From an uncultured delta proteobacterium (lineage in GTDB: Bacteria > RBG-13-61-14 > DRUE01), in contig CAIYYW010000366.1 in assembly GCA_903930515.1 (NCBI GenBank), positions 1 through 11,747 of the forward strand: a stretch of 11,747 nucleotides of DNA, in the 5' to 3' direction. Positions within the stretch are counted from its first letter, which is position 1. Every line of letters begins with the position of its first letter. The position numbers were made by a program, and so were the translations under genes. This document shows positions 3,656 through 11,680 of this stretch, one piece after another. The notes beneath the pieces were generated by a model. It did no database searches. It saw nothing but the letters and a program-made list of their open reading frames with translations, and had not been told where the DNA came from.

Positions 3656-4231
3656 ATGGAAGGCCATCCCGAAGATCAAGACCAAAGCCTGATGAGCCGG
3701 GTTCGCGAGGGAACGGGCGAATCGGCCTATAAGTGTTACCAGTGCGGCAAATGTTCCGCCGGTTGTCCGCTCGCGCTGGAGATGGACTATCCCCCCAGCC
3801 AGATCCTTCGGATGATCCAACTCGGCCTGCCCGGTCTGGAAGAAAAAGCGCTGGGATCGCTCAGCATCTGGCTTTGCCTGGCCTGCGAGACCTGCGTGGC
3901 GCGTTGTCCCAAGGAAGTTGACCTGCCGAAAATTATGGATTTTTTGCGACAAGAATCCTTGCGCCGGGGACTCACGCATCCCACGGCGAAAAATATCATC
4001 AAGTTCCATCGGGCCTTTCTTGACCCGGTGAAATATACCGGGAGGGCGTTTGAGGTCGGCCTGATCGCTGACTACAAGGCCCGAAACCCGATCAGCGCGT
4101 TCCAGGATGTTTTGATCGCGCCCAAGATGTTTTTCAAGGGCAAGCTCAGCCTGGCGCCTCATATGATCAAGGGAAGGGGCGAGATCGGGAGGATTTTTGA
4201 GCGGGCGATGAAAAAGGAAAGCAAGAAATGA
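3656..4231 (+). CDS. hdrC: HdrC: heterodisulfide reductase-type 4Fe-4S subunit C
   Basis: Iron-sulfur subunit that relays electrons from HdrA to HdrB in soluble heterodisulfide reductase-like complexes. The 191 residues carry two ferredoxin-type [4Fe-4S] motifs: Cys27-x2-30-x2-33-x3-37 (CYQCGKCSAGCP) and Cys74-x2-77-x2-80-x3-84 (CLACETCVARCP). These are followed by a helical C-terminal region ending in basic residues. The length fits the cytoplasmic HdrC family, and there is no membrane span, so this is not the HdrDE type. The ATG at 3656 has AAGGAG at 3637-3642, a somewhat long 13-nt spacing; the next in-frame ATG (3692) has no better site. It is the first gene of the operon, and its TGA overlaps the ATG of hdrB. 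Confidence 0.94.
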   Translation: MEGHPEDQDQSLMSRVREGTGESAYKCYQCGKCSAGCPLALEMDYPPSQILRMIQLGLPGLEEKALGSLSIWLCLACETCVARCPKEVDLPKIMDFLRQESLRRGLTHPTAKNIIKFHRAFLDPVKYTGRAFEVGLIADYKARNPISAFQDVLIAPKMFFKGKLSLAPHMIKGRGEIGRIFERAMKKESKK

Positions 4232-5142
4232 AGCTGGGATATTTTCCAGGATGCTCCCTGCTCGGCTCGGCCCGAGAGCTGGAAGAATCTCTTATGCTCG
4301 TGGCCAAAAAAGCCGGGATGGAGTTGACCACGATTCCGGACTGGAACTGTTGCGGGTCAACCGCGGCGCATAATCTGAACCACCTGCTTTCGGTCTCGCT
4401 CCCGGCCCGGATCCTGGCGCTGGCGGACAAGGCTGGGATGAAGGAAGTGCTGGTGCCCTGCTCGGCCTGCTACAACCGCCTGGCGATGGCGCAGTATGAG
4501 CTTCTGGAAAACCCGGATTTAAAAAAAGAGGTATCGGAAATTATTGAAATGGATTTTGAGGGGACTGCCAAACTATTGAATGTGGTGGAGGGGATGGAGA
4601 AAATTTTCGGGGAAGACTCCGTCCTGAAGGTGGAAAAACCGTTTGAGCATAAAGTGGCCTGCTATTACGGCTGCCTGCTGGTGCGTCCGGCCAAGGTCCT
4701 GAAATTTGACCGGCCCGAGGACCCGCAGTCAATGGACCGGTTGATGAAGAAGATCGGCGCGGACCCGATTGACTGGCCGGACAAGGTGGAATGTTGCGGA
4801 GCGGGCTTGAGCGTTTCCCGCACCGACCTGGTGGCCAAGCTCTCGGGCAAGATCCTGGAAAGCGCGGTCAAGCGGGGGGCCGAGGCGATCATTGTCGCCT
4901 GCCCGATGTGCCATTCCAATTTGGATATGAGAAGGGAAAATATAGAGAAGGCCGCGGGCAAAAAATATTCCATCCCGGTCCTATATCTCACCGAGGCGAT
5001 CGGGCTGGCGCTGGGCTTGAGCGAAAAGGAATTGGGGTTGCACCGGCACCTGGTCCCGGTGGTTTTCCCGATCCGGGAAAAGAAAGCGGAGCCGGAAAAG
5101 GCGGAGAGCGCTGAAGAGTCCGCGGGGGCGGTGGAGGAATAA
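4228..5142 (+). CDS. hdrB: HdrB: heterodisulfide reductase-type catalytic subunit B
   Basis: Catalytic subunit that in characterised HdrABC enzymes binds two non-cubane [4Fe-4S] clusters and reduces a disulfide. Both CCG motifs are complete: Cys9-x31-Cys41-Cys42-x35-Cys78-x2-Cys81, and Cys149-x39-Cys189-Cys190-x34-Cys225-x2-Cys228, matching the family pattern CX31-39CCX35-36CXXC closely. Its catalytic core therefore looks intact. In methanogens the substrate is CoM-S-S-CoB; in bacteria DsrC or an unknown disulfide is proposed, and no candidate is encoded in this window. The C-terminal 20 or so residues are an acidic Glu/Ala-rich tail that does not look like part of the core fold. The start overlaps the hdrC stop, with AGGA at 4215-4218. 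GGAGG at 5133-5137, in its last codons, serves hdrA. Confidence 0.95.
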   Translation: MKLGYFPGCSLLGSARELEESLMLVAKKAGMELTTIPDWNCCGSTAAHNLNHLLSVSLPARILALADKAGMKEVLVPCSACYNRLAMAQYELLENPDLKKEVSEIIEMDFEGTAKLLNVVEGMEKIFGEDSVLKVEKPFEHKVACYYGCLLVRPAKVLKFDRPEDPQSMDRLMKKIGADPIDWPDKVECCGAGLSVSRTDLVAKLSGKILESAVKRGAEAIIVACPMCHSNLDMRRENIEKAAGKKYSIPVLYLTEAIGLALGLSEKELGLHRHLVPVVFPIREKKAEPEKAESAEESAGAVEE

Positions 5143-5143
5143 G

Positions 5144-7135
5144 ATGGCCCGGATCGGAGTCTTTATCTGCCATTGCGGAGAGAACATCGCCGGGACCGTG
5201 GATGTGTTCAAGGTTGCGGAAGCGGCCGGCAAATTCCCGGGCGTGGTCCACAGCGTGGAATATAAATATATGTGTTCGGACCCGGGCCAGACCATGATCA
5301 AGGACGCGATCAAGGAGAAGAAGCTGACCGGGGTGGTGGTCGCGGCCTGTTCGCCCCGGATGCACGAACCCACCTTCCGGAGGGCCTGCGCGGAAGCGGG
5401 CTTGAACCCGTTTTTATGCGAGATGGCCAATATCCGCGAGCATTGCAGTTGGGTGCACGAGAAGGGCGAGGCGACCACCCAAAAAGCGATAGAGTTGATC
5501 CGGATTATGGTGGAAAAGGTGAAGCGGAACAAGCCGCTCTATTCCATCAAGGTGCCGGTGACCAAGACCGCGCTGGTGTTGGGAGGGGGCATCGCCGGGA
5601 TCCAGGCCGCGTTGGACATCGCCAATGCCGGCCACCAGGTGATCCTGGTGGAAAGGAGTCCGTCCATCGGCGGACATATGCTCCAGCTTTCCGAGACCTT
5701 CCCGACCCTGGACTGCTCGCAATGCATTTTGACTCCGCGGATGGTGGAAGTGGCGCAGCATCCGAAGATCACGCTTTATACTTATTCCGAGCTGGAAAGC
5801 CTGGATGGCTTCATCGGTAATTTCAAGGCCAGAATCCGGAGGAAGGCGCGCGGGGTGGACGAGAAATTATGCACCGGGTGCGGGGTCTGCATCCAGAAAT
5901 GTCCGCAGAAGAAAATCCCGAGCGAATTTGACGCCGGGATGGGAAAAAGGACCGCGATTTATGTTCCCTGCCCGCAGTCGGTCCCGAACCAGCCGGTGAT
6001 AGACCGCGAGCATTGCACCTATTATATTAAGGGCAAATGCAAGATTTGCGAAAAGTTCTGCGAGAGGAAAGCCATCCGGCTGGACCAACAGGATGAAATC
6101 ATAGAAGTCAATGTGGGCGCGGTGGTGGCCGCAACCGGCTTTGACATCCTCCATTCCAAGGATTTCCCGGAATACGGTTACGGCAAATATCCGGATGTGA
6201 TTGACGGCCTGCAATTTGAGCGGCTGGCCTCGGCCTCCGGACCCACCCTGGGAGCGATCAAGCGGCCCTCGGACGGGAAAGAGCCGGAGACCGTTGTGTT
6301 CATCGCCTGCGCCGGTTCCCGGGACGACGCCAAGGGGATTCCCTATTGCTCCAAAATCTGCTGTATGTACACGGCCAAACACGCGATGCTTTACAAGCAC
6401 AAGGTCCATAATGGAAAGGCCTATGTCTTTTATATGGACATCCGCGCGGGCGGGAAGAACTATGAGGAATTCGTGCGCCGGGCGATTGAGGAAGACGGAG
6501 CGGTTTATCTTAGGGGCCGGGTGTCAAGGATTTACGAGGAAGACGGAAAACTTATCGTCAAGGGAGTGGATACGCTTTTGGGGGCGCAGCCGGTTGAGAT
6601 CAAGGCGGATATGGTGGTGCTGGCCACCGCGATCGTGGCCAATCAGGACGCGGAATCTCTCGCGCAAAAACTGCGGGTAAGCTATGACCCCTACCATTTC
6701 CTGTCCGAGGCGCATCCCAAGCTCAGGCCGGTTGAGACCAATACCGCGGGAATTTTCCTGGCCGGAGCCTGCCAGGCGCCCAAGGATATTCCAGAAGCAG
6801 TGGCCCAGGCCTCGGGAGCAGCGGCCAAGGTCGCCGGCCTCTTCTCCTCGTCCGAGCTGTCGCGCGAGCCGGTGATCGCGGTGGTGAACCGCTTGCCGCC
6901 TCCGGTCTTCTCAACCTGCACCGGCTGTTTCCTTTGCGAAAAGGCCTGTCCCTATCAGGCGATTGAGCGGGAGGAGATCAAGGACCGGAAGGGCAATGTG
7001 ATTAAAGTAGTGGCCAAGGTCAATCCGGGCTTGTGCCAGGGATGCGGAACCTGCGTGGCGCTTTGCCGGGTCAAGGCCATTGATCTTCAAGGATTCACCA
7101 ACGAGCAGGTTTATTGCGAGCTGATGGCGTTATGA
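5144..7135 (+). CDS. hdrA: HdrA: FAD- and Fe-S-containing bifurcating subunit A
   Basis: Flavin-based electron-bifurcating core subunit, 663 residues, close to the usual length for a stand-alone HdrA. The N-terminal domain (1-135) has Cys9, 11, 44, 69, 92 and 101 (FICHCGENIAGTVD, CSPRMHEPTF), typical of the HdrA insertion domain. A dinucleotide-fold FAD site follows (VLGGGIAGIQAALDIANAGH, about 145-164), then TLDCSQCILTPRM around 188-200. An inserted ferredoxin has Cys243/246/249/253, with further cysteines at 291/299/302/306. The FAD domain continues with YCSKICCMYTAKHA (401-414) and TAGIFLAGACQAPKDI. The C-terminal ferredoxin has Cys592/595/598/602 and Cys631/634/637/641; the last motif ends CR rather than the usual CP. 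The family distributes electrons between ferredoxin and HdrBC. Its ATG follows GGAGG by 6 nt, 1 nt after the hdrB stop. Confidence 0.96.
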   Translation: MARIGVFICHCGENIAGTVDVFKVAEAAGKFPGVVHSVEYKYMCSDPGQTMIKDAIKEKKLTGVVVAACSPRMHEPTFRRACAEAGLNPFLCEMANIREHCSWVHEKGEATTQKAIELIRIMVEKVKRNKPLYSIKVPVTKTALVLGGGIAGIQAALDIANAGHQVILVERSPSIGGHMLQLSETFPTLDCSQCILTPRMVEVAQHPKITLYTYSELESLDGFIGNFKARIRRKARGVDEKLCTGCGVCIQKCPQKKIPSEFDAGMGKRTAIYVPCPQSVPNQPVIDREHCTYYIKGKCKICEKFCERKAIRLDQQDEIIEVNVGAVVAATGFDILHSKDFPEYGYGKYPDVIDGLQFERLASASGPTLGAIKRPSDGKEPETVVFIACAGSRDDAKGIPYCSKICCMYTAKHAMLYKHKVHNGKAYVFYMDIRAGGKNYEEFVRRAIEEDGAVYLRGRVSRIYEEDGKLIVKGVDTLLGAQPVEIKADMVVLATAIVANQDAESLAQKLRVSYDPYHFLSEAHPKLRPVETNTAGIFLAGACQAPKDIPEAVAQASGAAAKVAGLFSSSELSREPVIAVVNRLPPPVFSTCTGCFLCEKACPYQAIEREEIKDRKGNVIKVVAKVNPGLCQGCGTCVALCRVKAIDLQGFTNEQVYCELMAL

Positions 7136-7136
7136 A

Positions 7137-7164
7137 ATCCTTCTCCGCTAAAGCTACGAAGGAT
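7137..7164 (+). repeat. Inverted repeat overlapping the mvhD ribosome binding site
   Basis: ATCCTTC at 7137-7143 and GAAGGAT at 7158-7164 are perfect complements around a 14-nt spacer, filling most of the 36-nt gap between hdrA and mvhD. The right arm contains AAGGA, the likely Shine-Dalgarno for the mvhD ATG at 7172. Folded RNA would hide it, although AGGTGG at 7165-7170 stays free. The sequence resembles small hairpin repeats with a GCTAAAGCTACG-like core that I recall from environmental genomes. Confidence 0.6.
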
Positions 7165-7171
7165 AGGTGGG

Positions 7172-7609
7172 ATGATGTCGGAATTTGAACCGAAAATAGT
7201 CGCCTTTGTCTGTAACTGGTGCACTTACGCCGGAGCGGATTTAACCGGCACCAGCCGGATCAAGTATGCGTCCAATGTCCGGATGATCCGCCTGCCCTGC
7301 ACCGGCCGGATAGATTTCATGCTTTTACTCAAGGCCTTTGAACAGGGCGCGGACGGGATCATTGTTTCCGGATGTCACCCCAACGACTGCCATTACACGG
7401 CCGGGAACTTCCACGCCCGCCGTCGCTGGATGATGTTCCGTTCCCTGCTGGATTTCCTGGGAATAGACACCCGGCGGATCCATTTCGCCTGGGTGAGCGC
7501 GGCCGAGGGGGCGAAATGGGCGGAGTTCGTCAACTCGGTCACGGACCAAGTCAGGAAACTCGGCCCGAACGAGCAATATCAAAAACTGTCGCAAGCCGGA
7601 GTGGAATAA
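7172..7609 (+). CDS. mvhD: MvhD/FlxD: [2Fe-2S] electron-transfer protein of the Hdr complex
   Basis: Small iron-sulfur protein that in Mvh-Hdr and Flx-Hdr complexes connects the electron-input module to HdrA. The 145 residues have the family signature: FVCNWCTYAGADLTG with Cys14 and Cys17, Cys43 in RLPCTGRID, and Cys68/Cys73 in SGCHPNDCHY, the five cysteines seen in MvhD-type [2Fe-2S] proteins. HFAWVSAAEGAKWAEFV near the C-terminus is also typical. Two adjacent ATGs (7172, 7175) are possible starts; AAGGA at 7159-7163 favours 7172. The next gene follows after 7 nt. In the Flx nomenclature it would be flxD; because no NiFe-hydrogenase genes follow and Flx-like genes do, that is the more likely role. 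It stands alone and is not fused to HdrA. Confidence 0.94.
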   Translation: MMSEFEPKIVAFVCNWCTYAGADLTGTSRIKYASNVRMIRLPCTGRIDFMLLLKAFEQGADGIIVSGCHPNDCHYTAGNFHARRRWMMFRSLLDFLGIDTRRIHFAWVSAAEGAKWAEFVNSVTDQVRKLGPNEQYQKLSQAGVE

Positions 7610-7616
7610 AGGTCTG

Positions 7617-8420
7617 ATGGAAGAGTTAAGGAAAAAAGCGCGCGAACTGCTTACGAGCGGGGCGGTCAAGGTCATCATCGGATACGGCCCCGGATCGGGC
7701 AAGCGCGTCCGCGCGGTCTTTGTCCGCAAGCCGGAACAGGCCGACCTGCTTATTTGCGATGACCGCTGCCTCCAGAACCTGGCCGTGTATCTGACCAAGC
7801 CGGAAGTGAAAGCCCTGGGCAAAGCCGCGGTCGTGGCCAGGCTTCCAACCCTGCGCGCCATCCTCCAGCTGGCCGCGGAAAATCAACTTACGGACGGACA
7901 GGTGGTCGCGCTCGGAATTTCTCCGGAGGGAAAAATGACTGAGCTTTCGCAGTTCAAGGCGATAGAGGAATTCCTGGCCGGATTCAGCTTTGAACTGAGC
8001 GCCGAGGAAAAAGCGACGCTGGAGAAACTGGACCAGATGACCCCTGAACAACGCTGGCAGTTTTGGCAGGAACAGTTTGCCAAATGCGTCAGGTGTTACG
8101 GCTGCCGGGCGTCCTGCCCGCTCTGCTATTGCGAGAAATGCTTGGCCGAATGCAACCAGCCCCAGTGGATTCCCGCGGCTTCCCACCAGATCGGGAACCT
8201 GGATTGGCATATCATCCGGGCGATGCACCTGGCCAACCGCTGCGTGAATTGCGGGGATTGCTCCCGCGCCTGCCCGGTGGGGATCCCGCTTCATCTCTTG
8301 AATCAGAAACTGGCCGAGGAAGTTTTCAAGCAGTTCGGAGCGAGATCCGGGATGAAGGCGGCGCAGGAATACGCGCTTTGCAACTGGAAGCTGGAAGATC
8401 GGGAGAATTTTATTAAATAA
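7617..8420 (+). CDS. flxC: FlxC-like 4Fe-4S protein of the Hdr-associated NADH-input module
   Basis: Cytoplasmic iron-sulfur protein of 267 residues, probably relaying electrons between the FlxAB-like NADH module and MvhD/HdrA. Residues 1-125 resemble the N-terminal part of FrhB-like/coenzyme F420 dehydrogenase-related proteins (GYGPGSGKRVRAVFVRKPEQ, then CDDRCLQNLAVYL), with Cys47 and Cys51. The rest is an Fe-S region: Cys157/160/163/167 (CVRCYGCRASCP), immediately followed by Cys170/172/175/179 (CYCEKCLAEC), then Cys209/212/215/219 (CVNCGDCSRACP). That is two classical [4Fe-4S] motifs plus an extra four-cysteine set. The start lies 7 nt after the mvhD stop, preceded by AAAGG. The assignment to FlxC rests mainly on operon context; FlxB and FlxC names could be swapped in another scheme. 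Confidence 0.78.
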   Translation: MEELRKKARELLTSGAVKVIIGYGPGSGKRVRAVFVRKPEQADLLICDDRCLQNLAVYLTKPEVKALGKAAVVARLPTLRAILQLAAENQLTDGQVVALGISPEGKMTELSQFKAIEEFLAGFSFELSAEEKATLEKLDQMTPEQRWQFWQEQFAKCVRCYGCRASCPLCYCEKCLAECNQPQWIPAASHQIGNLDWHIIRAMHLANRCVNCGDCSRACPVGIPLHLLNQKLAEEVFKQFGARSGMKAAQEYALCNWKLEDRENFIK

Positions 8421-8425
8421 ATATG

Positions 8426-8449
8426 GGCGCGGACAAGAGTGTCTGCGCC
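8426..8449 (+). repeat. REP-like hairpin between flxC-like and flxB-like genes
   Basis: GGCGCGGACA (8426-8435) pairs with TGTCTGCGCC (8440-8449) around an AGAG loop: a 10-bp stem with one G-T pair, in the 47-nt gap inside the operon. Its reverse complement matches the palindromes at 10438-10457 and 10514-10529 (CAGACA, loop YTCT, TGTCTG), so it is a dispersed element in the opposite orientation. No T-run follows, so it is not a classical terminator; it may affect mRNA stability or uneven expression. Confidence 0.75.
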
Positions 8450-8467
8450 GCCAAGAGAATATAAAAA

Positions 8468-9484
8468 ATGATTATAGAGAAAAAATTATTGAAACAGGAT
8501 TCGGTGGAGAAACTGTTTGCCAAACTCAAGGCCGACGGCAGACGAATCCTGGCGCCCAAGGCCCAAGGCGACGAGATTTTCTTTGAGCAAGTCGCGTCTG
8601 CTTCGGAAATGGCCAAGGATTATATCCAGACCACGCTTTCTCCCAAGGGGGCGGTTTTCCCGCGGGTGGAAGCGTTGTTCCGGTATCAGATGGAAGGCAA
8701 GGATGTAAAGATTGAGAACAACTCCGAGCCGCAGCCGACCGTGATCTTCGGCTTAAGGCCTTGCGACGCCGCGAGCTTTGCCATTCTCAATTCGGTTTTT
8801 TCCTGGGACTACCAGGACTCGCAGTTCAAGTCCCGTCTGGCCCAAACCGCGGCCATCACCGTCAGCTGCAGCCGGGCGGATGAATATTGCTTCTGCACTT
8901 CCGTGGGAGGAAGTCCCGGAGACACCAAAGGCTCGGACATTTTGCTCACCCGGATCGGGAGCGGAGACTATCTCGCGGAAATCTTGACGGAAAAGGGCAA
9001 GGCCATGGTCACGCTTGCGCCCGAGCTGTTCGCGGAGGCGCCTTCGGAGGATAAGGAAAAATATCTGGCAAAGGTTCCGGTGAAATTTGATTTGAAGAAA
9101 CTGACGGAAAAATTGCCCGAGGCCTTCAATAACAACGAGCTTTGGATGGAGCAGTCGCTCCGGTGCCTGGGATGCGGCGCCTGCGCGTTCGTGTGTCCGG
9201 CCTGCGTCTGCTTTGACATCCAGGACGAGTCAAAGCGGGAATCCGGGGTCAGGCTCCGTTGCTGGGATTCCTGCGGGTTCTCCCTCTTCACCGCGCACAC
9301 CTCCGGCCATAACCCGCGCCCGGTCCAGAGTCAGCGCTGGCGACAGCGGGTGATGCACAAGTTCTCATACTTCAACGACCGCCAGAAATATCTCGGATGC
9401 GTCGGGTGCGGAAGATGCTCGCGCAAATGCCCGGCGGATATGAACCTGCTGGAACATTTGAAAGCGATTGCGGAGGCCAGGTGA
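8468..9484 (+). CDS. flxB: FlxB-like / sulfhydrogenase beta-type 4Fe-4S dicluster protein
   Basis: Iron-sulfur subunit of 338 residues, related to the beta subunit of sulfhydrogenase (HydB) and to AsrA of anaerobic sulfite reductase. It probably carries electrons from the FAD/NAD(P)H subunit encoded next. The N-terminal half has family landmarks: GLRPCD (95-100), then Cys134, Cys141 and Cys143 in CSRADEYCFCTSVGG. The C-terminal half has Cys233/236/239/243 (CLGCGACAFVCP) continuing into ACVCFDIQDE, then RCWDSC (264-269), HKFSYF, and a second [4Fe-4S] motif Cys311/314/317/321 (CVGCGRCSRKCP). The start at ATG 8468 has only a weak AAGAGA-like upstream site, downstream of the 8426-8449 hairpin. 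The stop TGA overlaps the next ATG. With no AsrC catalytic gene and with Hdr upstream, the Flx role is preferred to sulfite reduction. Confidence 0.85.
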   Translation: MIIEKKLLKQDSVEKLFAKLKADGRRILAPKAQGDEIFFEQVASASEMAKDYIQTTLSPKGAVFPRVEALFRYQMEGKDVKIENNSEPQPTVIFGLRPCDAASFAILNSVFSWDYQDSQFKSRLAQTAAITVSCSRADEYCFCTSVGGSPGDTKGSDILLTRIGSGDYLAEILTEKGKAMVTLAPELFAEAPSEDKEKYLAKVPVKFDLKKLTEKLPEAFNNNELWMEQSLRCLGCGACAFVCPACVCFDIQDESKRESGVRLRCWDSCGFSLFTAHTSGHNPRPVQSQRWRQRVMHKFSYFNDRQKYLGCVGCGRCSRKCPADMNLLEHLKAIAEAR

Positions 9485-10323
9485 TGAGCGAGCCTAACAT
9501 ATACCAGCCCTTTTTGATGCGGATTGATAAGATCACGGAAGAGGCTCCGCTGGTCAAGACCTTCAAGCTGGTGTTCGTCAACGATGAGGAAGGCAAAAAG
9601 TTCCAGTTCAAGGCCGGCCAGTTCGGGGAATATTCCGTGTTCGGAGAGGGGGAATGCACCTTATGTATAGCGTCCCCCCCAACCCGACCGGGTTATATTG
9701 AATGCACCTTCCGCCAGGCCGGAAGAGTCACCGGAGCGCTCGCCGGCAAGGAGGAAGGCGAAATCATCGGGTTCCGCGGTCCTTATGGCAATACCTTTCC
9801 GCTGGAACAATGGCAGGGAAAAAACCTGCTCTTCATCGCCGGGGGCATTGCGCTCCCGCCTTTAAGGTGCGTAATCTGGAACGCGCTGGACTTAAGGGAT
9901 CGGTTCAAGGAAATCACCGTTATTTACGGAGCCAGGAGCGTGGCCGACCTGGTTTATAAGCAAGAGCTTGAGGAATGGGCCAAGCGCGGGGATCTGAAAA
10001 TATTGACCACGGTTGATCCCGGAGGAGAAACCCCGGACTGGAAGGGCGAAATCGGGTTCGTGCCCGCGGTCCTGGAAAAGGCCGATCCCATCTGCGAAAA
10101 TACCGTCGCCCTGGTCTGCGGTCCCCCGATTATGATCAAGCTCACCCTCCCGGTCCTGGCAAAGCTCGGATTCAGCCCGGAAAATACCTTCACCACTTTG
10201 GAAAACCGGATGAAATGCGGGATCGGAAAATGCGGGCATTGTATGGTCGGAAAATACTTCGTTTGCAAGGACGGACCCGTGTTCACATTGGCTCAACTCA
10301 ATCAACTCCCGCCGGAATACTGA
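9484..10323 (+). CDS. flxA: FlxA-like FAD/NAD(P)-binding oxidoreductase with C-terminal [2Fe-2S]
   Basis: Electron-entry subunit that would oxidise NAD(P)H for the Hdr-Flx complex; 279 residues, related to sulfhydrogenase gamma (HydG), AsrB and PyrK-like ferredoxin-NADP reductase folds. Residues 1-105 are the FAD-binding barrel (FKAGQFGEY at 42-50, GFRGPYGNTFP at 96-106). Residues 112-225 are the NAD(P)-binding domain (LLFIAGGIALPPLR, VIYGARSVADLVY, LVCGPPIMI). Residues 243-265 bind [2Fe-2S]: Cys245-x4-250-x2-253-x7-261 (MKCGIGKCGHCMVGKYFVC). In the stretch where relatives usually have a Pro/Ser flavin motif, this protein has CTLCIASPP (58-66). The start at 9484 overlaps the upstream TGA and follows GGAGG (9472-9476) by 7 nt; a longer frame from 9397 lies within flxB and is unlikely. 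It is the last gene of the operon. Confidence 0.88.
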   Translation: MSEPNIYQPFLMRIDKITEEAPLVKTFKLVFVNDEEGKKFQFKAGQFGEYSVFGEGECTLCIASPPTRPGYIECTFRQAGRVTGALAGKEEGEIIGFRGPYGNTFPLEQWQGKNLLFIAGGIALPPLRCVIWNALDLRDRFKEITVIYGARSVADLVYKQELEEWAKRGDLKILTTVDPGGETPDWKGEIGFVPAVLEKADPICENTVALVCGPPIMIKLTLPVLAKLGFSPENTFTTLENRMKCGIGKCGHCMVGKYFVCKDGPVFTLAQLNQLPPEY

Positions 10324-10353
10324 TTCACCACAGAGGCACAGAGGGCACAGAGA
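10324..10353 (+). repeat. CACAGAG-type short tandem tract
   Basis: After TTCA come CCACAGAG, GCACAGAG and GGCACAGAG, units of 8, 8 and 9 bp ending in a purine-rich A. It begins at the base directly after the flxA stop. It aligns without gaps to the tract at 10471-10500, with seven differences, all A/G transitions. Confidence 0.85.
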
Positions 10354-10367
10354 AAAAATATTTGGGT

Positions 10368-10386
10368 CAAGGGACTGCGTCCCTTG
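10368..10386 (+). repeat. Palindrome 1: CAAGGGAC-TGC-GTCCCTTG
   Basis: Perfect 8-bp stem with a 3-nt loop, the closest strong hairpin to the end of the operon. No T-run follows (CGCCTGAATA), so at most it could act as an mRNA 3' end stabiliser. Confidence 0.75.
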
Positions 10387-10403
10387 CGCCTGAATACTGA
10401 TTG

Positions 10404-10429
10404 AATGTGCGAGCGCCTTCAGGCGCGAT
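10404..10429 (+). repeat. Palindrome unit 2 (GCGCC-TTCA-GGCGC), copy A
   Basis: The 26-bp unit AATGTGCGAG + GCGCCTTCAGGCGC-type palindrome + GAT recurs at 10569-10594 with one difference. The hairpin stem is 10413-10417 / 10422-10426. Confidence 0.8.
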
Positions 10430-10437
10430 ATTCGGGG

Positions 10438-10457
10438 CGCAGACATTCTTGTCTGCG
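10438..10457 (+). repeat. Palindrome 3: CGCAGACA-TTCT-TGTCTGCG
   Basis: Perfect 8-bp stem with a 4-nt loop, preceded by GGGG and followed by ATCAA. It is the same family as 10514-10529 and, inverted, as the intra-operon hairpin at 8426-8449. Confidence 0.8.
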
Positions 10458-10470
10458 ATCAAATAAATTT

Positions 10471-10500
10471 TTCACCGCAAAGGCGCAAAGGACGCAAAGA
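10471..10500 (+). repeat. CGCAAAG-type short tandem tract
   Basis: After TTCA come CCGCAAAG, GCGCAAAG and GACGCAAAG, again 8, 8 and 9 bp. It is collinear with the CACAGAG tract at 10324-10353. Two further units (GGCGCAAAG, CCCGCAAAG) lie at 10537-10554. Confidence 0.85.
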
Positions 10501-10513
10501 ATTCTAGGGGCAA

Positions 10514-10529
10514 CAGACACTCTTGTCTG
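10514..10529 (+). repeat. Palindrome 4: CAGACA-CTCT-TGTCTG
   Basis: A 6-bp stem preceded by GGGGCAA and followed by CGATTAA. Second copy of the CAGACA family in this region. Confidence 0.78.
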
Positions 10530-10536
10530 CGATTAA

Positions 10537-10554
10537 GGCGCAAAGCCCGCAAAG
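10537..10554 (+). repeat. Partial CGCAAAG tract, two 9-bp units
   Basis: GGCGCAAAG followed by CCCGCAAAG, lacking the TTCAC lead of the full tracts. It directly follows palindrome 4, suggesting mosaic growth of the region. Confidence 0.7.
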
Positions 10555-10568
10555 AATTTTTTGCTTTT

Positions 10569-10594
10569 AATGTGCGAGTGCCTTCAGGCGCGAT
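10569..10594 (+). repeat. Palindrome unit 2, copy B
   Basis: Identical to 10404-10429 except C to T at 10579, which turns a C-G pair of the stem into a T-G wobble, so the RNA hairpin would still form. Confidence 0.8.
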
Positions 10595-10608
10595 TAATTG
10601 CTGTGCGG

Positions 10609-10622
10609 GAGACTTTAGTCTC
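10609..10622 (+). repeat. Palindrome 6: GAGACT-TT-AGTCTC
   Basis: Perfect 6-bp inverted repeat preceded by GTGCGG and followed by AATAGCG. The stem sequence is unrelated to the others, but the layout is the same. Confidence 0.7.
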
Positions 10623-10633
10623 AATAGCGGGAA

Positions 10634-10649
10634 CAGATTATTTTTTCTG
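10634..10649 (+). repeat. Palindrome 7, degenerate (CAGA ... TCTG)
   Basis: Preceded by GCGGGAA and followed by CAATCAA, like palindrome 4. Only 4 bp of stem remain around an AT-rich loop, so it is probably a decayed copy of the CAGACA family. Confidence 0.5.
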
Positions 10650-10710
10650 CAATCAAATGTGCGTATTCAATTATTTCTTAATATGCCAATCTGACTTAAC
10701 TTTAAACTTT

Positions 10711-10722
10711 AGACCTGACCCC
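10711..10722 (-). repeat. GGGGTCAGGTCT motif, possible REP/RAYT-type element end
   Basis: On the minus strand the motif GGGGTCAGGTCT lies 10 nt after the stop of the hypothetical gene and is followed by an AAAGTTTAAAGTT tail. I recall this motif from repeats next to REP-associated tyrosine transposase genes, but no transposase is present here. Confidence 0.35.
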
Positions 10723-10732
10723 AGGGTTCTAT

Positions 10733-11680
10733 TTAGGTAAACAAACATATAGCAGCATTCGCATAATATTCTTTGTTTAATAAAATTGTGTCGGCAAATA
10801 AAGTTATCATGTTTTCTCTTTTATTTTTCGATAGCTGGTTGAAATATTCTGGCGACATTACAAAATTCTCGCAATGTTGCAATACAATCCAGGAAATTAA
10901 ATCTTTCTGAGCCTTTCCTTTTTTAGAGCTAATTGTGTCTAAATACGAGTCTATGTATCTTTCATCCCTAGCCAAATAGGAGAATATAATTATATAATCA
11001 CCATTTCTCGGAAATATATTTAAAGCAACCCTCACAACATCATTTGTAGTTTGAAAATCGTCAAGAGAATAAAGAGCACTGACAGCGATAGATGGTTCGG
11101 CATTTTTCAACAATATAACCATATGTTTTATCTCATTATATCTCCTATTAAGAAAGGCATCATCATAGCTCTTTTTATATAAGTAACAGTAGTATGCATT
11201 TACTAAATGACTTACAGCTTGCATTCCTTGAGTAGAGTAAGTATCGCCACGCCACAACCCTAGTCGGATTCCTTTTTGGTAAGCACTCTGAATTTTGGCG
11301 GCTCCTAAACTTACAGCATGAAGTTCTCTTAATACTGAGCGATAAGCAAGAAGAAATAAATGACTAGGATTATTTATATTAATATTGCAATTGTCGATTC
11401 GATTAAATATATTAGAGTCATGAATTGAACATAATCCTGTAAATGTTGAAGCATTGTTTACTCCGACGCTTTTAAATTCCACAATCTGATTCATATTATT
11501 TAGATGACGAAGGCACATCATTATCACATGCCCTCTTACAGCGATTTTGCTCATAACTCTTTTTAATGGTATTGAATGAGATTTTATCGCGCTTCTTTTG
11601 CATATCTCTTCAGGCTCAAGGCAATGTTGAAGTCTTGCATTCTGCAATTTGAAAATAAAATCTTTTAGTTCTTTATTCAT
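10733..11680 (-). CDS. Hypothetical protein with Cys/His cluster, AT-rich, probably acquired
   Basis: A 315-residue protein I cannot assign to a named family. The N-terminal part has a possible zinc site of treble-clef/HNH-like spacing: Cys20, Cys27, His35 (KSHSIP) and Cys84-x2-His87-Asp88 in NNASTFTGLCSIHDSNIF. I recall the ASTF-x2-C-x2-HD pattern from uncharacterised bacterial proteins, but no nuclease active site can be confirmed. Residues 105-315 look mostly helical (LAYRSVLRELHAVSLG). No signal peptide or clear membrane segment is seen. The ATG at 11680 is the earliest possible start, because an in-frame TGA precedes it directly; the ribosome site is weak (GGAAAAAG). Its strongly AT-rich composition contrasts with the GC-rich neighbours, and repeat-like motifs lie just outside both ends, suggesting transfer. 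It is not part of the hdr operon and runs towards it. Confidence 0.75.
   Translation of the reverse strand: MNKELKDFIFKLQNARLQHCLEPEEICKRSAIKSHSIPLKRVMSKIAVRGHVIMMCLRHLNNMNQIVEFKSVGVNNASTFTGLCSIHDSNIFNRIDNCNININNPSHLFLLAYRSVLRELHAVSLGAAKIQSAYQKGIRLGLWRGDTYSTQGMQAVSHLVNAYYCYLYKKSYDDAFLNRRYNEIKHMVILLKNAEPSIAVSALYSLDDFQTTNDVVRVALNIFPRNGDYIIIFSYLARDERYIDSYLDTISSKKGKAQKDLISWIVLQHCENFVMSPEYFNQLSKNKRENMITLFADTILLNKEYYANAAICLFT

Follow-up and report, generated by a model that had tools for sequence, protein, structure and literature searches.

A mosaic of REP-type hairpins, probably orphaned from their transposases, in an uncultured bacterial lineage

A cluster of small palindromes in an 11,747-nucleotide stretch of DNA from an uncultured bacterium (the window) is best read as a mosaic of REP-type elements of at least three classes; their cognate RAYT genes would have been lost from this genome or lie in its unassembled part, leaving copies that are probably immobile remnants (probability about 0.86). 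The window corresponds to contig C366 in a genome of 3.65 Mb and 401 contigs (G000, the window genome), and the cross-species comparison covers one congener (G001). An earlier note, made from the window alone, had suggested substrates of single-strand (Y1) transposases, and this proposal is supported by a lead, loop and tail shared genome-wide, by compensated stems and by congener RAYT genes flanked by the same hairpin classes. It is the combination of these RAYT genes with dispersal, covariation and differences between orthologous sites that identifies the hairpins of the array as REP elements.

All seven palindromes reported for positions 10361 to 10660 are present, and they alternate with other repeats as follows:

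10324 to 10354, + strand: non-palindromic dispersed repeat of the CGCAAAG type (CACAGAGGCACAGAGGGCACAGAG), 67-77% like the later CGCAAAG copies
10368 to 10386, + strand: class C hairpin CAAGGGAC-TGC-GTCCCTTG with lead TTGGGT (palindrome 1)
10406 to 10429, + strand: class A element TGTGCGA-GCGCC-TTCA-GGCGC-GAT, found 19 times in identical form across the sampled DNA of its own genome and the congener (palindrome 2, GCGCC-TTCA-GGCGC, 10413 to 10426)
10434 to 10459, + strand: class B element GGGGC-GCAGA-CATTCTTG-TCTGC-GAT (palindrome 3, CGCAGACA-TTCT-TGTCTGCG, 10438 to 10457)
10471 to 10501, + strand: CACCGCAAAGGCGCAAAGGACGCAAAG repeat
10507 to 10533, + strand: second copy of the class B element (ACAGACACTCTTGTCTGC; palindrome 4, CAGACA-CTCT-TGTCTG, 10514 to 10529)
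10535 to 10558, + strand: degenerate CGCAAAG repeat
10571 to 10594, + strand: class A element with the wobble stem GTGCC/GGCGC, a variant that recurs in the congener (palindrome 5, GTGCC-TTCA-GGCGC with a T-G wobble, 10578 to 10591)
10602 to 10625, + strand: class A element with stem GAGAC/GTCTC and a compensatory A-T at the second pair (palindrome 6, GAGAC-TTTA-GTCTC, 10609 to 10622)
10627 to 10653, + strand: decayed class B element, 72% to the reference copy (palindrome 7, a decayed CAGACA copy, lies within it)
10691 to 10722, - strand: terminal inverted repeat GGGGTCAGGTCTAAAGTTTAAAGTTAAGTCAG, standing alone, from a TIR-flanked Y1 transposase (TIRYT) element
8425 to 8452, - strand, outside 10361 to 10660: class B element in a short gap between two operon genes

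Perfect pairing over at least 6 bp, around a loop of 2-4 nt, is seen in five of these hairpins, which are accompanied by one wobble copy and one decayed copy. This level is reached by none of 2000 dinucleotide shuffles of the array (mean 0.30 hairpins) and by none of 5474 other 300-bp windows from a sampled part of the same genome. Folded as single-stranded DNA, the array also surpasses its shuffles (z = -3.36), and its sequence matches 51 places in its own genome. The hairpins of classes A, B and C are interleaved with the non-palindromic CACCGCAAAGGCGCAAAGGACGCAAAG (CGCAAAG) repeat, and a transposon terminal repeat closes the array just beyond 10660. The CGCAAAG-type repeat adjoins class A and B elements at many other loci; as a dispersed repeat (CACCGCAAAGGCGCAAAGGACGCAAAGAATT; 10324 to 10354, 10471 to 10501 and 10535 to 10558), it usually lies next to hairpins and outside genes.

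The palindromes had been described as sharing one layout with unrelated, interchangeable stems. Shared leads and tails do exist, but they form two layouts: GTGCGR...GAT is confined to hairpins with a TTYA loop (class A) and GGGGC...GAT to the CAGACA hairpins (class B). Class A follows TGTGCGR-NNNNN-TTYA-NNNNN-GAT and has three copies in the array. Class B follows GGGGC-NNNNN-CAYTCNTG-NNNNN-GAT, with two copies and a decayed third in the array and the fourth at 8425 to 8452, and class C is represented by the single CAAGGGAC hairpin. The stems likewise sort into these classes rather than being unrelated, though within a class they do differ in sequence while keeping their pairing. In place of free interchange of stems across one layout there are thus three REP classes, each varying in its stem in its own way and matched to a separate RAYT. 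The copy carrying a wobble-preserving C to T change is a genuine recurrent variant, with two further instances in the congener. At the 5' end, class A carries the tag GTGC, while class B carries GTAG in some copies (GGTAGTGAGG, CCGTAGTGGAG, TTGTAGGGGG) and GGGG or GTGG in others, compared with GTAG, GYRG, GTMG or GTGG in the GTAG superfamily.

Classes A and B are both dispersed through the window genome and its one congener. With stem positions left free, the exact class A pattern occurs in 38 copies in the window genome and 22 in the congener (genome-wide counts), and in none of 39 other genomes searched, one of them from the same order; a reversed version of the pattern, used as control, is absent from all 41 genomes. 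Class A accordingly matches the description of a REP as a 20-40 nt palindrome in many dispersed copies. The remaining class statistics are drawn from about 24-27% of the genome together with loci that contain matches, and 80 loci with relatives of the neighbouring oxidoreductase serve as the negative control. Among copies picked by lead and loop only, all five class A stem pairs form in most, and the paired stems differ (GCGCC, GCGAC, GGGAC, GCGGC, GAGAC, GCGCG), each with its own complement. When class A is picked by its lead alone, full pairing is seen at 33/459 and 22/188 sites and, in control genomes, at 0/428; the equivalent values for class B are 33/160 and 13/46 against 0/110. In 28 distinct class A sequences, chosen blind to stem pairing, 93.6% of cells pair and double changes occur in three of the five pairs. 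The covariation score of 0.301 lies above all 500 shuffles (0.081 +/- 0.024) and above versions slid along the sequence (0.02-0.07). Some class A arms are mismatched and look recombinant, for example GCGACTTTAGGCGC. The earlier note's lead-stem-loop-tail model is therefore borne out genome-wide by selection on lead and loop against control genomes: leads and tails are shared beyond chance, and the stems are no isolated palindromes, since copies occur throughout the genome and in none of the control genomes.

RAYT genes flanked by these hairpins occur in the congener, confirming the predicted co-occurrence there. An intact 152-aa RAYT on contig C320 has class B hairpins on both sides; a RAYT on C324, broken by one TAA, has class A hairpins on both sides in inverted orientation; and a RAYT on C699 is framed by class C-like hairpins. 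On C487, a paralogue of the class B RAYT (46% identical) is framed by GTAG-tagged class B arrays. All four contigs thus show the REPtron arrangement, in which a RAYT lies between two REPs of the same class. The proteins of C320, C324 and C699 score 86.7, 105.2 and 90.1 bits against the NCBIfam model NF047646 'REP-associated tyrosine transposase' (cut-off 80), and among solved chains the closest to the C320 protein is 4er8, named TnpArep (E = 1.2e-4). The aligned RAYTs share invariant HxH histidines, a Y130-NPV motif and invariant tyrosine columns (candidate catalytic tyrosines). Of the five matches to Y1 transposases in the window genome, none has class A, B or C hairpins at its flanks, and no RAYT cognate to these classes was detected in the assembly, which lacks about 6% of the genome; for this search the broken class A gene was read in a single frame through its one stop codon. 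Its own RAYTs were considered as owners of the hairpins and rejected, as they are flanked by GGGGTCAG TIRs or a GGTGGCTGTCCC inverted repeat instead. The REP elements of the window genome are therefore probably orphaned. A further genome of the same order (G002) contains 19 Y1 transposase places; several of its short RAYTs lie between hairpins that share the overall plan of those above with another sequence (GCGGGTG...CACCCGC), and many of its long Y1 genes lie between GGGGTCAG TIRs that are variable but have matched ends.

The layout of class A is the one published for REPs that flank RAYTs, TGTAGGAGCGGATTCATCCGCGAT of P. entomophila among them (Nunvar 2010, PMC2817692). With the GTAG-1 REPs and RAYTs of Pseudomonas and Xanthomonas it shares a 4-nt tag, an unpaired dinucleotide, a short perfect stem, a TTYA-type loop and a conserved 3-nt tail, as well as compensated stem variants and a RAYT gene between two inverted copies (Nunvar 2010, PMC2817692; Di Nocera 2013, PMC3733652). 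It differs in its tag, GTGC instead of GTAG, in its host lineage, which is uncultured and represented by two genomes, and in its cognate RAYT, which is broken in the congener and was not found in the window genome; tag, broken gene and missing cognate all count against a REP/RAYT reading. Small perfect hairpins are also typical of the Group 3 REPtrons of Stenotrophomonas maltophilia and Marinomonas, in which the tag and certain loop positions mattered and stem sequence was less critical, though mismatches are harmful (Corneloup 2021, PMC8266576). Recognition by TnpA-REP proteins is of the folded single strand: they bind the REP by its tag and a loop or bulge and cut close by (PMC8266576). The constant lead and loop and drifting stem found here are as predicted by this mode of recognition, with biochemistry available for those systems and sequence for these.

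Comparison of orthologous sites points to turnover between the two species. Two congener genes are separated by a class B element some 45 nt long, where the orthologous gap in the window genome is empty, and another orthologous gap contains A then B in the window genome and B then A plus a third hairpin in the congener. At the site of the array itself, hairpin C1 alone is shared and the A and B copies are absent from the congener, though the right flank is not homologous. The congener ortholog of C1 (CAAGGGTC-CGC-GACCCCTG) differs by one compensatory A-T to T-A pair and one mismatch. The string CGCCxGAATACTGATT flanks C1 on both sides and resembled a target duplication; similar GAATACTxxTC strings are part of repeat modules elsewhere, and hence no such duplication is claimed. 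These site differences fit past mobility.

A mechanism can be proposed on this basis. Each class would be a small hairpin on which, once single-stranded, a cognate HuH/Y1 transposase (RAYT, TnpA-REP) acts, presumably by binding and cleaving it and transferring it through single-stranded intermediates. Specificity would be carried by the 5' lead and the loop, with the stem required only to be complementary, and stem sequence could thus drift with compensatory changes. Copies would have built up between genes in the ancestor of the genus and later, possibly clustering because new ones land beside or inside old ones. With the cognate genes gone or among the unassembled 6%, the elements of the window genome would now be inactive, and the relic end of a TIR-flanked RAYT relative adjoins these orphan copies.

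This relic is the solitary TIR that ends the array. It begins with GGGGWSAS, the TIR signature of TIRYTs (Di Nocera 2013, PMC3733652), and is shared with the flanks of Y1 genes: both ends of a TIRYT transposase element on congener contig C469 match window positions 10696 to 10723. Three long Y1 genes of the window genome (about 320 aa) have TIRs beginning GGGGTCAG, which also fit this signature and liken them to published TIRtrons (PMC3733652); the TIR is however a mere neighbour of the array hairpins and unrelated to them in sequence. A search for similarity between the window and plasmid DNA found nothing. Upstream of the array, 3656 to 10323 holds an operon for HdrA/HdrB-like, FlpD/MvhD, ferredoxin-type and NAD/FAD-binding subunits, predicted from sequence to encode a redox complex of electron-confurcating type. 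On the other side, a 315-aa open reading frame (10733 to 11680, - strand) has a GC content below that of neighbouring genes and no Pfam or NCBIfam match, nor any DNA match in the congener; it was possibly acquired.

Because the array lies directly 3' of this + strand operon, its hairpins might instead act as RNA, stabilizing or terminating the 3' end of the oxidoreductase transcript under selection for RNA hairpin shape, as the earlier note had also considered. One stem does tolerate a wobble pair, and REPs are able to stabilize mRNA (PMC3733652). However, no hairpin is followed by the T-run of an intrinsic terminator, no Rfam family exceeds its gathering threshold anywhere in the window, and RAYT genes are framed by the same hairpins. 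Genome-wide, the elements stand on either strand relative to genes and also in divergent gaps, though these counts are low, many copies being found at the ends of contigs. As with REPs, which lie mostly outside genes, class A is intergenic in 20 of 24 cases and class B in 17 of 24, in DNA called 88% coding by a rough, hexamer-scored gene model that misses both genes bordering the array (an earlier longest-ORF map overcalled, at 93% coding, and was replaced). An RNA role as the main explanation is very unlikely, though RNA function could be a secondary effect of the hairpins.

Just as improbable, if not more so, is a reading in which the hairpins only form the ends of larger units, either MITEs or IS relics left by a double-strand DDE transposase, or one composite repeat duplicated as a whole. 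Longer modules do recur, and a copy of the 76-bp block from 10646 to 10722 (decayed class B element, AT-rich spacer and TIR) lies on C514 of the congener, at 81% identity and in a non-orthologous position. Single A or B units nevertheless stand alone and in varying order, no DDE element is linked to them, and it is RAYT genes that bear these hairpins at both ends. A reading as unrelated palindromes gathered by chance in intergenic DNA under little constraint has nothing weighty in its favor beyond short palindromes being common (about 0.3 per 300 bp), and is effectively refuted by the shuffles (0/2000), the copies across the genome and the covariation.

REP-type elements may also serve as targets for one another. 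A further hairpin, class F (consensus CTTG-TCCKCCGTAGCYTTRGCGAAGGMGGA), has compensated stems of its own; in both genomes, several class A loops carry it as an insert exactly at TTY^A, in one orientation or the other. Nested class F copies lie in the window genome on C94 (L036), C16 (L056), C35 (L073), C68 (L105), C12 (L052), C206 (L009) and C297, and in the congener on C34, C118, C467, C475, C487, C514 and C673. In a search that started from class F and was blind to class A, 8 of 29 testable copies were abutted by inverted arms of 6-8 bp at identical offsets (random rate 0.8%). Inspection of the same list by eye adds about three copies in class A elements with decayed arms and about 11 in the loop of another class F copy, with nests up to three deep. 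Two copies in a genome of an unrelated family (G010; L386, L390) occupy the same loop point of a different hairpin, GGACTGGYTT...AARCCAGTCC, suggesting that class F moves between distant lineages. Insertion was plausibly catalyzed by a putative single-strand transposase, targeting a pyrimidine-rich tetranucleotide exposed in an extruded loop; no transposase for class F was found. Recursive loop-homing insertion, with hairpin loops as landing sites for further hairpins, is on balance the favored account of these nests. REPs within palindromes (PMC3733652) and IS elements that target REPs (PMC1525189) are already on record. The latter (IS1397, ISKpn1, IS621, ISPpu9) are another case of mobile DNA landing on REP hairpins; here, in contrast, the insert is a 26-30 nt hairpin, placed in the loop repeatedly and recursively. 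No earlier record of recursive hairpin-in-loop insertion was found in the literature searched, most subscription papers lying outside it.

The array itself consists of REP elements of an already known type, and its attraction is the pairing of an owner and an orphan species; the nested insertions go beyond the earlier observation of palindromes. Complete REP/RAYT systems, of several classes each with a matched transposase, now extend to a little-known uncultured lineage, and provide a clean case in which tag and loop are constant and stems drift by compensation, as single-strand recognition predicts. As one species has RAYTs beside its elements and the other has orphans, the persistence of REPs after RAYT loss is open to study. 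Loop-homing, if true, would account for both nested palindromes and mosaic arrays, and the nested insertions, if confirmed, would open the choice of target by these elements to direct testing.
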